Source of the DNA: Ruminococcus sp.
Lineage (GTDB): Bacteria; Bacillota; Clostridia; Oscillospirales; Ruminococcaceae
Direction: 5' to 3'
Assembly: GCF_017549005.1 (NCBI RefSeq)
Contig: NZ_JAFYYT010000055.1
Span: forward strand, 1 to 64,000
Length of the DNA: 64,000 bases
In this document: one piece after another, positions 58,557 to 63,991 of the stretch
Numbering within the stretch: the first letter of the stretch is position 1
How the letters are laid out: each line of letters opens with the position of its first letter
Made by a program: the position numbers and the translations under genes
Notes under the pieces: model-generated
Seen by the model: only the letters and a program-made list of their open reading frames with translations
What the model was told of the DNA's origin: nothing
Database searches by the model: none

Positions 58557-59093
58557 GTGGTAAGCGTTAAATTTTCTGAAACTGATACCGATAAACTTGA
58601 CAAAACAGTAGAAAATGTTGTAAAATTATTAGAACGAAAAAGTCTGACCATTGCTACAGCGGAGAGCTGTACGGGAGGACTTCTTTCAGAGCTTATAACA
58701 TCAGTATCGGGCGCGTCTGCGGTATTCGAGCTTGGGATATGTACTTATTCCGAGCGAATCAAGACCGAATTTCTGGGAGTTCCTGCCGAAACGATTCGGG
58801 CTTTCGGCGTAGTGAGCGAACAGACGGCATTGAGTATGGTCAGAGGGCTGAAACAGCGCTCAGGAGCAGACGTGTGCGTTTCCGTGACGGGTATTGCAGG
58901 TCCATCGGGCGGAACTGCTGATACTCCCGTGGGAACGGTCTATATCGGTTTCGATATTTGCGGCAGGGAATTTGTAAAACTTCCGGAGCTATGTAAGCTC
59001 AGCGACATGAGCAGGGCGAATATCAGAAAATGCGCCGCTGCTTATGCCTTTGAAATCGTCGAAAAAATGCTGATGGAGGAGATTACAGACTGA
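58557..59093 (+). CDS. CinA C-terminal domain protein (NMN deamidase, PncC-like)
   Basis: 178 residues from a GTG at 58557 with AAGGA ten bases upstream. Only the C-terminal CinA domain is present: TIATAESCTGGLLSELITSVSGASAVFELG, the conserved YSERIKTEFLGV, and VCVSVTGIAGPSGGTADTPVGTVYIGF. The full-length CinA N-terminal MoCF domain is absent, as in E. coli PncC. It turns NMN into nicotinic acid mononucleotide to recycle NAD. Its stop overlaps the sortase gene start (TGATG). Confidence 0.93.
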   Translation: MVSVKFSETDTDKLDKTVENVVKLLERKSLTIATAESCTGGLLSELITSVSGASAVFELGICTYSERIKTEFLGVPAETIRAFGVVSEQTALSMVRGLKQRSGADVCVSVTGIAGPSGGTADTPVGTVYIGFDICGREFVKLPELCKLSDMSRANIRKCAAAYAFEIVEKMLMEEITD

Positions 59094-60856
59094 TGAGCGA
59101 CAAGTTCAATGAAGAAAGCTCAGAGGCTCAGCGCAGAGCTGAAAAAATAAAAGCGATCAGAAGGTCGATACACAGTGAAGCGGAAGTCGCTCCTACGACC
59201 TATGATAATAAAAACGAAACAGAACGCACGGAGAGCATATCCGACCGCATAATGAGAGCCAAGGAAAAGAAAATGGCTACAGCGGCGGACATACTTGAAG
59301 AGCTTGACGCTGCTATCGCTTACGAAAAGGCAGCGGCTGCAAAAATGGCTGAAGAAGCTGCCAGAGTTGCGGAGAAGGCTGCCGAAAGCGCTTCACCTGA
59401 TATATCCGATCTGCTTGACGGACTTGAGACACCCGCACATGAGGAACTCAAGGAGATAGCGGAGGAGATCGCAGGCGACTTTACAGAAGTTGCCGATACG
59501 GTCACTGATAAGGTGGAGGATTTCACAGAGGTCTCCCACGAGGCAGAAGAAGAGGAAATAGACCTTGAAGAGGTATTTTCCGTAAAGCCTGAAGCTGATG
59601 AAGAACCCACAAGGGTCATGTCAAGCGAGGCTGTCATGAAAGCGGCAAAAGAAGAAGGCGTTCAGCATACAGACAGTGAGGCTGCTGCCGCAACGGCTGG
59701 TCCTGCCGAAAGCATACTGAAGGCGGAACACGGTACACATCAGGCGCAGCACAGGGAGTTTGCTCCCGAAAATGCCGGAAATGCGGCGGAAGAAGCCGTA
59801 TTACCCGAAAAAAAGAAGAAACACAAGAAGAAAAAGAAGAAAAAAAGCTTCAAACAGCGGCTTATCGACCTTGTTCCCCATAAGGGCGACGGCGTCGGTG
59901 AGTGCATAAGAAAGATCGTATTCCTCTGCTCGATAATTGCCATAGTTGTCTGCGGATACATGGTTGGCGATTACTACTATGACCTGTGGTCAAGCAGGAA
60001 CAAGACCGAGAAGATCATGGAGATATACGATACTGCGACTGAAAAGAAAAAGCCTCCCGTACAGAAGAAAGAGGAAGATAAAAGGAAGAAGTATACTCTC
60101 CTCGAGGGCGCGCGCAAGCTCCTTGAGATAAATCCCGATATCGTCGGAGTAATAAGCATACCCGACACTCTTCTCAACAATCCTGTTTTGCAGGCGGAGG
60201 ACAATAAAAAGTACCTCAATACGAAGTACGACCTTACTGAGAATATCGCGGGCGAGATCTTCCTCGATTACAGAAACCACTTTGACGAGGTGGACGAGGA
60301 AGGCTATCTTAAATGCCCGAATTCGGACAATCTTATCCTTTACGGACACAATATGTACGATGATCAGTTGTTCGGATCACTTAAATACTATGTCAGAAAT
60401 GAGGCGTATTACGGACTTCACCCCGTTATAAACCTCAGCTCTAATTACGAGAATTATCAGTACAAGATATTTGCATTTTTCATACTTGACGCCGACGATG
60501 AGACCGATACACGATTTGACTGCTGGAACGATCTCGACTTTGACAGCGAGGACGATTTCTACAATTTCGTCAACGAGGCAAAGAGAAGAACTATCCGCAC
60601 CAACGATGTAGACGTAAAGTACGGCGATCCGCTGCTTACACTTTCCACCTGCAACAGCTATCTCCCCGATGAACGTGCCCGTCTTATAATACTTGCAAGA
60701 CTGGTAAGAGAGGGCGAGGATCCGATGAAGGGTACTCAGGACAGTCAGCCGAACCCCAATATCAAGTGGCCGACGCTGTTCTACGCTGATCACCCCAACG
60801 AACATTACGATCCTGATGCAGAATTTGTACCCTACGGCCCCAAGGAAGGAAAGTGA
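59093..60856 (+). CDS. Class B sortase with long cytoplasmic N-terminal extension
   Basis: 587 residues, starting in the stop codon of the previous gene (TGATG). Residues 1-270 form an unusual cytoplasmic extension: charged, Ala/Glu-rich and coiled-coil-like, ending in a Lys-rich run KKKKHKKKKKKKSFKQR. A transmembrane helix follows (~272-292, IVFLCSIIAIVVCGYMVG). The sortase domain has His in LILYGHNM (~417), Cys in LSTC (~520) and Arg in DERARLIILARL (~527), the full catalytic triad. Class B sortases attach pili or haem proteins to the wall, or act as housekeeping enzymes in some Clostridia. No substrate is encoded here. Next gene is a second sortase. Confidence 0.92.
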   Translation: MSDKFNEESSEAQRRAEKIKAIRRSIHSEAEVAPTTYDNKNETERTESISDRIMRAKEKKMATAADILEELDAAIAYEKAAAAKMAEEAARVAEKAAESASPDISDLLDGLETPAHEELKEIAEEIAGDFTEVADTVTDKVEDFTEVSHEAEEEEIDLEEVFSVKPEADEEPTRVMSSEAVMKAAKEEGVQHTDSEAAAATAGPAESILKAEHGTHQAQHREFAPENAGNAAEEAVLPEKKKKHKKKKKKKSFKQRLIDLVPHKGDGVGECIRKIVFLCSIIAIVVCGYMVGDYYYDLWSSRNKTEKIMEIYDTATEKKKPPVQKKEEDKRKKYTLLEGARKLLEINPDIVGVISIPDTLLNNPVLQAEDNKKYLNTKYDLTENIAGEIFLDYRNHFDEVDEEGYLKCPNSDNLILYGHNMYDDQLFGSLKYYVRNEAYYGLHPVINLSSNYENYQYKIFAFFILDADDETDTRFDCWNDLDFDSEDDFYNFVNEAKRRTIRTNDVDVKYGDPLLTLSTCNSYLPDERARLIILARLVREGEDPMKGTQDSQPNPNIKWPTLFYADHPNEHYDPDAEFVPYGPKEGK

Positions 60857-60862
60857 TAAGCC

Positions 60863-61813
60863 ATGAGCAAAGCTATTAAGATCATTTCAGCCTGCGCTGC
60901 CTGTGCAGCGGCGGTAGGTCTCGGAACTGCGGCTGTATTGCTGAACAAGGACAGGAAAGCTGCTCCTACTCCAAGCGTCGTACAAACCACCGCAGCTGTT
61001 ACCGAGCCTGTTGCAGACCTGCCTGAGAAGCTGTCGGATAAGTACAGCTATGTTCCGTCGGAAACCGGCGTGAGCGAAAGGACAAAGTCTCTCAAGAGGC
61101 TCAATAAGGATATCATGGGATATATCAAGATCGACGGTACCCAGGTGGATTATCCGTTTGTGCATGATCCCGGCGAGGTACCTGCAAACGATCCGTACTA
61201 TGGACCCGACGCATGGCCGCCCAATATGTTCTATCTTGAAAAGGACCTTTTCAGACAGTACTACGACAGGGGAACGCTCTATGCAGATTACAGGGACGTC
61301 TTCGGCAGCAACGATCTTGAACACTCCGAGAACCTGGTCATCTACGGTCACAGCTGGTATGACGGAACGATGATGGGTTCACTGAGAAAATACCGTGCAG
61401 GCTTTGATTTCTATAATCAGTACCCGTTTATAAAGGTCAGCTCCAATTACAGGGACTATGATTACGTTATATTCGCTTACCTTGTAACGAGCGGCACCTA
61501 CGACGCTACGGATTTCCACTACTGGAATATGGAAGAGCTCGACAGCGAGGAGGAGTTCAACTTCTACATCGACTGCTGCAAGCGTTCGTGGGGCATTGAC
61601 ACGGGAATAGATGTTAAATACGGCGATAAACTGCTGACGCTCTCCACCTGCTATGCAGACTGGGACAATTCGAGGTTCCTTGTTGTGGCAAGAAGGCTGA
61701 GAGAGGGGGAGGTCGCAGGAGACCTCAATTCCATTCAGCATACGGAAGCCTTTATGCAGGCACAGAAGGAGGCAGCTGAAAAAGCCGCTGCCGAACAGCC
61801 TCAGCAGCAGTAA
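60863..61813 (+). CDS. Class B sortase
   Basis: 316 residues, ATG at 60863 six bases after the previous stop. N-terminal signal-anchor helix (~6-27, IISACAACAAAVGLGTAAVLL), no long extension. Catalytic His in LVIYGHSW (~161), Cys in LSTCYAD (~263) and Arg in NSRFLVVARRL (~271). A Gln-rich tail ends the protein. It is similar in order of motifs to the first sortase but clearly diverged, so the pair may have separate substrates. Co-transcribed with the first sortase and probably the SpoIID-domain gene 31 bp downstream. Confidence 0.93.
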   Translation: MSKAIKIISACAACAAAVGLGTAAVLLNKDRKAAPTPSVVQTTAAVTEPVADLPEKLSDKYSYVPSETGVSERTKSLKRLNKDIMGYIKIDGTQVDYPFVHDPGEVPANDPYYGPDAWPPNMFYLEKDLFRQYYDRGTLYADYRDVFGSNDLEHSENLVIYGHSWYDGTMMGSLRKYRAGFDFYNQYPFIKVSSNYRDYDYVIFAYLVTSGTYDATDFHYWNMEELDSEEEFNFYIDCCKRSWGIDTGIDVKYGDKLLTLSTCYADWDNSRFLVVARRLREGEVAGDLNSIQHTEAFMQAQKEAAEKAAAEQPQQQ

Positions 61814-61844: not shown

Positions 61845-63146
61845 ATGAAGGTACAGACAATGCTTAAAAGAGCAGCAGCTGTCACTTCGGGAGCATTGGT
61901 GCTCTCGGCTTCTACGGGTATAGTAATTGCGGAAGACGGCACAATTGCAGCGGAAAATACTTCCGCCGTGACCGAAACCGCTGTAAGCGATACCACATCC
62001 AGATTAACGGAAGCCGTTACCGAAGCCCTTGCAGAAAACGAGGACGAGGAACAGAACAAACCCGTTGACTGGGAAAAAGCTGACATCAGCGATTACGATT
62101 CCAGCCTTACACTTATAAGCTACGAGCTCGCTACCCCCGAAATGGCAAAGGTGGGCGAGCCTGTTGACCCATATGCAGGGCTTTCCGAGGAAGAGCGCAA
62201 GGCTCTCGAGGAAGCTGTTGCAAAGAAGAAGAATGCACTCAGAAAGGCTACGCCCACTCTGTCAAAGAATGCGGCGGTAAGCCGTACAAAAACACCTACT
62301 GCGGTGGAGCTCGTTACTTCGGGAGCAACTGTGGGAGATATACCATCCTCGCAGCCTGACCCGAACCTCGAAGCAAAGCCCGGACAGTTCGCATTCGTTA
62401 CATACGGCTGGGGACACGGAGTGGGAATGAGCCAGAACGGCGCTAATTTCTATGCTGCCTATGCAGGCTGGACATATCAGGATATCCTGTACCACTACTA
62501 CCCCGGAACCGAACTTATGAACACAGGCGAGACAGACGAGGAAGAGCTCACCATAGCTCATAAGCCTGCAGGCGATACCCTCAAGGTAGTCTCCGAGATA
62601 GTGAACCGCGAGGTTGGCGGAAGCTTCTCCTATGAAGCTATCAAGGCACAGGCAGTTGCCGTATATACTTATCTTAAATATAACCACGACGATTCCAGTG
62701 ACCTGAGAGGCAAGGAAGACCCTCCGCAGATAGTCATCGACGCCTGCAACGAGGTTCTCGGCGAAGCGCTTTTCTATGACGGCAATTATGCCCTGACAGT
62801 ATTCTCCGCTTCAAGCGGCGGCTGCTCGGCAAACTGCTACGAGGTATTCTATGCGGATTATCCTTACCTGAGAAGCGTGCCCAGCGATTACGACGCGGCG
62901 TTTGATCCGCATTGGGGAACAGTTACGTATATGGAAGCTGATACAGTAAAGAAAAAGCTTGAATCAGCATATCATATAACTCTTTCCGACGATCCTGACA
63001 ACTGGATCCAGCCTGTTTATTCCGAGCAGACGGGATACGTTACGGAAGTCAGCATCGACGGACAGAAAACCATAAAGGGATATCCCTTCTCTATGATGAT
63101 GGGACTTAAATCCTCCAAATTCAATCTTACATATACAAATGATTGA
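61845..63146 (+). CDS. Secreted SpoIID/LytB-domain protein with permuted motif order
   Basis: 433 residues, ATG at 61845 behind AAGGAGATC. Signal peptide (~1-28), a disordered Glu/Ala/Thr-rich stretch, then the SpoIID-type domain. The motif GWGHGVGMSQNGANFYAAYAG...ILYHYYPGTEL (~188-222) comes first, followed by VSEIVNREVGGSFSYEAIKAQAVAVYTYL (~250-278), SASSGGCSANCYEVFYADYPYL (~322-345) and KGYPFSMMMGLKSSKFNLTY (~411-430). In usual SpoIID/LytB proteins the GHGVGMSQ block is last, so this domain looks circularly permuted. SpoIID cuts glycan strands as a lytic transglycosylase. The catalytic Glu expected in the E-x-x-x-G/A-x-V-x-x-E region appears as SEIVNREVG. Substrate and function are inferred. 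Confidence 0.85.
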   Translation: MKVQTMLKRAAAVTSGALVLSASTGIVIAEDGTIAAENTSAVTETAVSDTTSRLTEAVTEALAENEDEEQNKPVDWEKADISDYDSSLTLISYELATPEMAKVGEPVDPYAGLSEEERKALEEAVAKKKNALRKATPTLSKNAAVSRTKTPTAVELVTSGATVGDIPSSQPDPNLEAKPGQFAFVTYGWGHGVGMSQNGANFYAAYAGWTYQDILYHYYPGTELMNTGETDEEELTIAHKPAGDTLKVVSEIVNREVGGSFSYEAIKAQAVAVYTYLKYNHDDSSDLRGKEDPPQIVIDACNEVLGEALFYDGNYALTVFSASSGGCSANCYEVFYADYPYLRSVPSDYDAAFDPHWGTVTYMEADTVKKKLESAYHITLSDDPDNWIQPVYSEQTGYVTEVSIDGQKTIKGYPFSMMMGLKSSKFNLTYTND

Positions 63147-63186
63147 TAAACGGCTTTGAGCCGGTACAAGTATTACAGAACAAAAG

Positions 63187-63242
63187 AAATAAGTCTTTGG
63201 ATAGATGAGAGGCACAGCCTTAGTGTATCCGGAGGCTTATTT
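63187..63242 (+). terminator. Terminator-like hairpin after the SpoIID gene
   Basis: 17-nt arms 63187-63203 and 63226-63242 pair fully if G-U pairs are counted, around a 22-nt loop. It is followed by CTCCTTTT, a weak U-tract. Ends the sortase/SpoIID operon. Confidence 0.6.
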
Positions 63243-63251
63243 CTCCTTTTG

Positions 63252-63519
63252 GGTGATGAAAGGTGAAGCCGAGAGGTGAAAAAAACCTTAAAAATACTCG
63301 AAAAGGTGAAAAAAGGTGAAAACTTAGCAAAATAAATTAACAATAGCAAAAACGTTTGTTCTGCTTTTGGTTAAACTTTGAACAAAATCCACAAAATATC
63401 GCGGATTATCGCGTTAACTCTTGTAAAAAACTCCATCTTGACCTTGACTCTGAATAATGGTAAAATATGTTTAGGGTGAAAAAAGGTGATTGGAAGTGAA
63501 ATTTTCCAAATTAGGGTGA
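63252..63519 (+). promoter_or_regulatory. mraZ promoter and MraZ-type GGTGA repeat array
   Basis: Promoter: TTGACC (63438-63443), 17-bp spacer, TAAAAT (63461-63466). GGTGA occurs at 63252, 63262, 63275, 63305, 63315, 63475, 63485 and 63515, with AGTGA at 63495. Most steps are 10 bp (or multiples), so the repeats lie on one DNA face. MraZ binds direct repeats with GTG cores at this spacing in other bacteria, so the array is a likely autoregulatory operator, partly just downstream of the -10. This region and the hairpin before it fill the gap 63147-63559. Confidence 0.75.
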
Positions 63520-63559: not shown

Positions 63560-63991
63560 ATGTCAGATCTGTTGTGCGGTACTTATTATCCAAGCATAGA
63601 TCAGAAGGGCCGTATGAGCTTCCCGACAAAGCTGCGCGAAATACTCGGACCGGAGTTCTTTCTCTGTCAGGGACATGATGACGCCTATATCGCCGTATAC
63701 TCGCCAGAGGCATTTCAGGAATACTGCGAGACTCTTAATTCCATACCCGGCAAGAAGGGAAGCGACATAAGACGTAAGCTTCTTGCAGGTGCTGATAAGC
63801 AGGTCCCCGATAAGCAGGGACGTATCTTTATCACACAGCAGCTCAGAGATCATGCAGGGATAACCGACGAGGTAGTCGTTATCGGTGCAAACAGAAGAGC
63901 TGAGATATGGAACAAGTCCAGATGGGAAGAATTCAACAGCAATATCTCGCAGGACGAGATCAACGATGTGCTTGCTGATCTGGTTCTGTGA
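63560..63991 (+). CDS. mraZ: Transcriptional regulator MraZ
   Basis: 143 residues, ATG at 63560 behind GCGAGGCG. Two AbrB-like SpoVT/MraZ halves are visible: GTYYPSIDQKGRMSFPTKLREIL (with the DxKGR motif) and KQVPDKQGRIFITQQLRDHAGI (DKQGR). The rest matches MraZ length. It is normally the first gene of the dcw division/cell-wall cluster (rsmH, ftsL, pbpB...), which should follow beyond the window edge. It binds DNA repeats before its own gene and represses the cluster. Confidence 0.95.
   Translation: MSDLLCGTYYPSIDQKGRMSFPTKLREILGPEFFLCQGHDDAYIAVYSPEAFQEYCETLNSIPGKKGSDIRRKLLAGADKQVPDKQGRIFITQQLRDHAGITDEVVVIGANRRAEIWNKSRWEEFNSNISQDEINDVLADLVL

Follow-up and report, generated by a model that had tools for sequence, protein, structure and literature searches.

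A circularly permuted SpoIID/LytB domain at a CinA-sortase B locus of Ruminococcus

SpoIID enzymes cut glycan strands, and do so outside sporulation as well, according to two studies (PMC6221140, PMC6635528), in the first of which E101 is given as the catalytic residue of C. difficile SpoIID. In another paper (PMC4877998), a SpoIID-like protein of C. acetobutylicum is described as possibly being a substrate of sortase, and a scaffoldin of Ruminococcus is mentioned as being attached by sortase. In the literature searched, which was limited to papers available without subscription, we found no report of SpoIID with a circular permutation or permuted order, of SpoIID with sortase B, or of SpoIID with Actinobacteria and LytB; the titles matching a sortase-cinA fusion among the literature matches listed were unrelated.

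The protein analyzed here is encoded in a Ruminococcus sp. contig, within a stretch of 64,000 nucleotides referred to as the window (Table 1). With the SpoIID proteins of spore formers (PDB entries 5i1t and 5txu from C. difficile and 4rwr from B. anthracis), it shares both blocks of the domain, the catalytic Glu and similarity over most of the domain, but its blocks are swapped and its score against the stage II sporulation protein D equivalog model TIGR02870, 122 bits, lies below the cut-off of 234.75. Against TIGR02669, it scores 118 bits, above the cut-off of 83.3, and thus counts as a SpoIID/LytB domain, yet the match is split into two pieces in swapped order, the best of which places residues 124-225 on profile positions 179-269 of 270, with no single collinear match in the canonical order. 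The Pfam match (PF08486; 27 bits, cut-off 23) covers the KAQA part alone and so does not by itself reveal the permutation. More generally, domain models score permuted proteins piecewise, which calls for caution in reading their output.

Two further groups of proteins invite comparison. Canonical-order SpoIID proteins at the same kind of locus, namely L142 of R. albus 8, L131 and L202, share a short loop after KAQA with the window protein (judged by eye) and, in L142 and L131, also an N-terminal box, but carry block B C-terminal to block A; L142 falls below the Pfam cut-off (20.2 versus 23). The GHG-first SpoIID/LytB proteins of Actinomycetota (L171, L173-L179, L185, L189, L190) have the same block order as the window protein, but their inter-motif distance is 155-179 residues, compared with 71-78 in clade I, the group of the window's genus defined below.

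Table 1. Features of the window and fused genes at related loci (window positions unless a locus is named)
Feature	Coordinates	Strand	Details
CinA C-terminal (PncC, nicotinamide-nucleotide amidohydrolase) domain protein	58557..59093	+	178 aa
First class B sortase	59093..60856	+	587 aa; TLSTC motif; class B model 160 bits, cut-off 153.75
Second sortase	60863..61813	+	316 aa; TLSTC motif; best on class B model, 102 bits, below cut-off
Permuted SpoIID/LytB protein	61845..63146	+	433 aa
Conserved N-terminal box (WEKADISDYDSSLTLISYE)	62070..62126	+	from sequence alignment
Block B (GHGVGMSQ...HYYPG)	62367..62513	+	canonical profile 196-243 on residues 175-223; usual C-terminal end, here first
New B-to-A junction	62514..62573	+	20 residues separating the two profile matches
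Block A (KAQAVAVYTY, SSGG, GLKSSKF)	62574..63143	+	canonical profile 12-201 on residues 244-433; usual N-terminal part, here last
E256, aligned with catalytic E101 of C. difficile SpoIID	62610..62612	+	weak 9.2-bit PDB piece, backed by family alignment
Strong hairpin, perhaps a terminator	63185..63244	+	3' of permuted gene; fold of 63176-63256, -34.9 kcal/mol, z -5.88
Fusion L203	L203:6781-10419	-	1213 aa; Pfam MoCF, CinA_KH, CinA, sortase, SpoIID; full sortase
Fusion L205	L205:3560-6709	+	1050 aa; sortase partial (NCBIfam), none in Pfam
Fusion L204	L204:3819-6710	+	964 aa; trace of sortase

Block order and circular permutation

The preliminary description had placed GHGVGMSQ...HYYPG ahead of the KAQA and SGG motifs, with GLKSSKF at the C-terminus, and this order is confirmed by the translation and by the profile matches. 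Behind an N-terminal signal-like segment, recognized by eye, GHGVGMSQ starts at residue 190 (nucleotide 62412) and HYYPG occupies residues 217-221, followed by KAQAVAVYTY from residue 267 (62643), SSGG from residue 323 (62811) and GLKSSKF at residues 420-426 (63102-63122). The domain starts at about residue 175, with block B reading PGQFAFVTYGWGHGVGMSQ...HYYPG and block A following it as EIVNREVGGSFSYEAIKAQAVAVYTY...SASSGG...GLKSSKFNLTYTND. Downstream of the gene, a simple terminator scan lists positions 63231-63246, but the region totals 8 terminator-like sites versus 6.9 in shuffles.

Against a canonical profile of 243 positions, derived from 81 distinct canonical-order domains, the native protein yields two matches in swapped order (Table 1). 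Once block B is moved to the end, these are replaced by a single 256-bit match spanning profile positions 12-243 of 243, and in a rotation scan in 4-residue steps, the top scores were obtained with the cut within the B/A junction. The canonical-order relative L054 gives one main match in its native order (304 bits, a score that is not independent because L054 is included in the profile). Each block thus occurs once, the order is swapped and moving block B back produces one full match, bearing out the circular permutation proposed in the preliminary description. A second GHG motif at the C-terminus was sought and is absent: none of the 168 open reading frames (ORFs) with both block profiles, drawn from 170 loci with gene copies included, has a second block B match at the threshold used, and a second GHG block or tandem domain was accordingly rejected.

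In phmmer comparisons with SpoIID proteins in the PDB, 5i1t and 5txu align with the window protein in three pieces and 4rwr in two, all in permuted order, the KAQA piece of the 5i1t alignment being weak by itself (9.2 bits). By contrast, L202, which is the L054 gene with more flanking sequence, aligns with 5i1t in the canonical order, as two pieces of which the larger (223-424 on 141-325) runs from block A through block B, and matches TIGR02669 in a single stretch; this difference counts in favor of the explanation preferred below. The cut lies between ...KFNLTYT and PGQFAFVTYG, and because the corresponding stretch of L202 reads KFNVSYSGGQFIFTTYG, the new ends are probably located at a hairpin turn.

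Locus context and distribution

In the window, a gene for a CinA C-terminal domain protein is followed by two sortase genes, which directly precede the permuted gene. Of the two sortases upstream, the first exceeds the class B cut-off, and the second scores best on the class B model but remains below that cut-off. The first sortase has a charged N-terminal region of approximately 270 residues, with a poly-lysine run ahead of the membrane segment (by eye). Eight sortase-domain matches are found in the genome, including the two at this locus. At all 30 loci from this genome and 29 congeners, SrtB is matched on the same strand in the 1.5-2 kb upstream, and MraZ lies downstream at 21 of the 30, two of the loci ending short downstream. 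From window position 63560 onward (L192:9561-18130), the locus adjoins what we take to be a division and cell-wall cluster, with MraZ followed by RsmH-, PBP-, MurE-, MraY- and FtsW-like ORFs.

The same locus is also known with the canonical block order, in R. albus 8 (L142), L131, L202, L203 and L206-L208. Because these canonical-order relatives show the same gene order, we consider it most likely that the permutation affected a gene whose position and partners stayed unchanged, and thus that it probably arose in place. Fusion of the genes is seen in three genera, with CinA joined to a canonical-order SpoIID and the sortase part between them in L203, L205 and L204 (Table 1); Pfam detects a sortase in L203 alone. 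These fusions combine a cytosolic enzyme with wall enzymes in a single protein. The adjacency and fusion of the CinA, sortase B and SpoIID genes suggest that anchoring by sortase is connected with the cleavage of glycan strands. Among 80 listed matches from named genomes, SrtB is encoded upstream at 26 of 32 permuted loci versus 23 of 48 canonical ones, and among these matches, CinA was not found in the flank examined at 10 of the 26 permuted loci with SrtB.

Homologs with the same block order proved numerous in Ruminococcaceae, a family in which the preliminary description had suggested that they be sought. The domain is present, collinear with the query, in 34 of 35 other genomes of the genus (the lone exception, G035, is 88% complete), which led us to reject both an assembly or frame artefact and a lone oddity. 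At the family level, an uninterrupted match from GHG to KAQA was obtained in 20 of 197 sampled genomes, that of the window included, representing 11 of 125 genera, with the loci checked by reading the motifs. With E-values of 1e-16 or better required, sampling of the order (345 genomes) contributes G429 and sampling of the class (391 genomes) contributes G901, which is 77% complete and 5% contaminated; nothing further came from the phylum (398 genomes). The 80 of 490 matches listed from named genomes include permuted forms from two metagenome-assembled genomes (MAGs) of R. flavefaciens and from MAGs assigned to Ruminococcus, Oscillospiraceae and Clostridia. Almost all sampled genomes of the genus have the permuted gene next to sortase genes, and so do related gut bacteria. 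Overall, the 170 loci contain 85 permuted and 83 canonical ORFs, copies of one gene included. One permuted copy, L049 in G085, has an in-frame stop in block A and represents either a pseudogene or a sequencing error. A search of viral contigs recovered no relative.

This wide spread, together with the existence of the locus in both orders, goes beyond the preliminary description. The gene is orthologous and syntenic, and the persistence of both orders in related lineages, those of R. flavefaciens and R. albus, offers a direct view of the fixation of a permutation in a catalytic domain.

Starting from a permuted protein of a Thermoleophilia MAG (L135), the search was extended to Actinomycetota, in which both block orders occur. 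At least 26 of 149 sampled genomes of this phylum, G1310 included, have a GHG-first match over the whole query, as counted by eye with a GHG-first query from single rows extending from query residue 8 or earlier to residue 263 or later; in further genomes, the two halves appear as separate rows in either order. By motif, 11 of 21 Actinomycetota loci are GHG-first, 1 is GHG-last and 9 fall outside the motif pattern.

Number of origins of the permuted order

For phylogenetic analysis, the 168 ORFs were reduced to 157 rows by removing duplicate domains and A blocks shorter than 130 residues (such as L111), and then to 105 by removing rows at least 72% identical to a kept one, with the blocks set in a common order. 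Clade I (20 rows; support 100/99) comprises the window's genus and nine further genera and sits among canonical-order proteins of the locus. Clade II (14 rows; 100/97) and L053 are placed apart from clade I, and L135, the one Actinomycetota-type GHG-first row in the tree, is far from it, on a long branch and with an odd composition. In clade II, SrtB is found upstream in 8 of 14 rows and was not matched in the other 6; L053 has SrtB upstream.

On the maximum likelihood tree, the permuted label needs four changes of order, one of them for L135; the starred branches force four, and a single change was obtained in none of 200 bootstrap trees. Several origins of the permuted order are the better-scoring reading. 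In a tree of block B alone (44 columns), the permuted rows are scattered. The competing history is a single origin for clades I and II and L053, with the canonical locus genes among them being paralogues or reversals. It draws on the presence in all three groups of members in the same kind of locus and on AU tests that reject none of the joint groupings (I+II, p = 0.468; I+L053, p = 0.216; I+II+L053, p = 0.275), but in addition to the changes counted above, the log-likelihood falls by 5.0, 17.0 and 21.6, respectively, when the groups are joined, and we consider this history doubtful.

Returning to several origins, we tentatively propose a broader picture with two parts. First, the SpoIID/LytB fold would have been permuted several times independently at the same hairpin, in the Ruminococcus group, the second clostridial group, L053 and Actinomycetota, and would thus be a naturally permutable enzyme; second, CinA-SrtB-SpoIID would constitute an envelope module not described so far, whose three parts (a CinA domain in the cytosol, a sortase in the membrane and a glycan-cleaving enzyme outside) act as one unit, encoded as a single polypeptide in some genera.

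Predicted activity and partners

The Glu column that contains E256 holds E in 76 of 76 permuted rows and in 80 of 81 canonical rows, with one gap. Many residues are invariant in both blocks in an alignment of 30 sequences from the genus, and the domain is under purifying selection, with dN/dS of 0.03-0.05 against four congeners at nearly saturated synonymous sites. These features argue for an active enzyme and, as the active-site Glu and the core motifs are kept, the permuted protein has most likely retained the ability to cut glycan strands outside the cell; its lytic role is suggested by the family and the conserved Glu. Given the synteny and the fusions, it would likely be an extracytoplasmic lytic transglycosylase working with class B sortases. 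A C-terminal sorting signal of the kind carried by sortase substrates was not found by eye in the window protein, which ends in NLTYTND. Since the genome encodes a separate canonical SpoIID (L001) and SpoIIP, engulfment is probably not the task of the permuted protein; its assignment as the sporulation SpoIID equivalog was rejected on account of L001 and the TIGR02870 score below the cut-off.

The region preceding the domain carries a box (WWKAELSDYD...SYE) that is common to clade I and, weakly, to R. albus-type canonical proteins. A strict box pattern, composed after the sequences had been seen and missing the window's own protein, matches 25 of the 60 N-termini from clade I, 2 of the 83 canonical ones and none of 2860 shuffled sequences. 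The box common to permuted L039 and canonical L131 extends over 16 residues (E = 0.003, for a short match in a small set).

We are fairly confident that the product of the gene is a secreted lytic transglycosylase of the SpoIID/LytB type and that the circular permutation arose in place, at a conserved CinA-SrtB(-SrtB)-SpoIID locus; the enzyme is predicted to cleave glycans where SrtB attaches proteins. The ancestral locus gene would have had the canonical arrangement, with the N-terminal box and a linker followed by block A, block B and a tail. In the window's genus (R. flavefaciens and its kin) and the nine further clade-I genera, block B would have come to lie between the linker and block A, with the position and neighbors of the gene unchanged. 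The strand ending in GLKSSKF-NLTYT and the strand PGQFAFVTYGWGHG would flank the cut, the site of which is probably a hairpin turn, and the old ends would be connected by a short linker. The likeliest route would be a tandem duplication of the domain, after which the first A and the last B disappeared; a tandem-duplicated intermediate was not seen among the 168 ORFs. Because the gene adjoins or is fused with class B sortases, the permuted enzyme most likely opens peptidoglycan at the sites of SrtB protein attachment. Counted against this explanation are the clade-II rows and named loci in which SrtB or CinA, respectively, was not matched, the partial (L205) or trace (L204) sortase in two of the three fusions, the weak direct alignment of E256, the shortness of the loop that holds the zinc ligands in C. 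difficile SpoIID, and the short N-terminal-box match to canonical proteins.

The spacing of the blocks bears on whether the fold would close within one chain. In 60 clade-I ORFs, the gap between the two block models is 3-8 residues, and such a short junction of nearly constant length, with the cut at a probable hairpin turn, suits one-chain closure. The stretch ahead of block B, counted from the start of the open frame, is long (112-250 residues, median 166) and would be compatible with a domain-swapped pairing, in which block B packs on block A of a neighboring molecule so that activity would require a dimer or a larger assembly; in view of the junction, we regard such pairing as improbable. 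Least probable of all, with only a slim chance, is a degenerate protein in which block A by itself would be what is left of an inactive SpoIID and block B would have become an independent element for wall binding or structure: C140 and H145, the zinc ligands in C. difficile SpoIID, do fall in a loop that is short in the window protein, and in its canonical-order relatives as well (by eye), but the invariant residues in both blocks, the universal Glu of the permuted rows and the low dN/dS all speak against degeneration.

Some relatives carry additional domains. A Peptidase_M23 domain precedes the permuted clade-II SpoIID domain in L112:6207-7571(+) and L169:6404-7810(+), and a type I dockerin precedes the permuted domain in L111:6608-7423(+), where the contig stretch analyzed stops inside the gene. 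On the reverse strand of L062, an N-acetylmuramoyl-L-alanine amidase-like part, recognized by eye, is fused to a canonical SpoIID.
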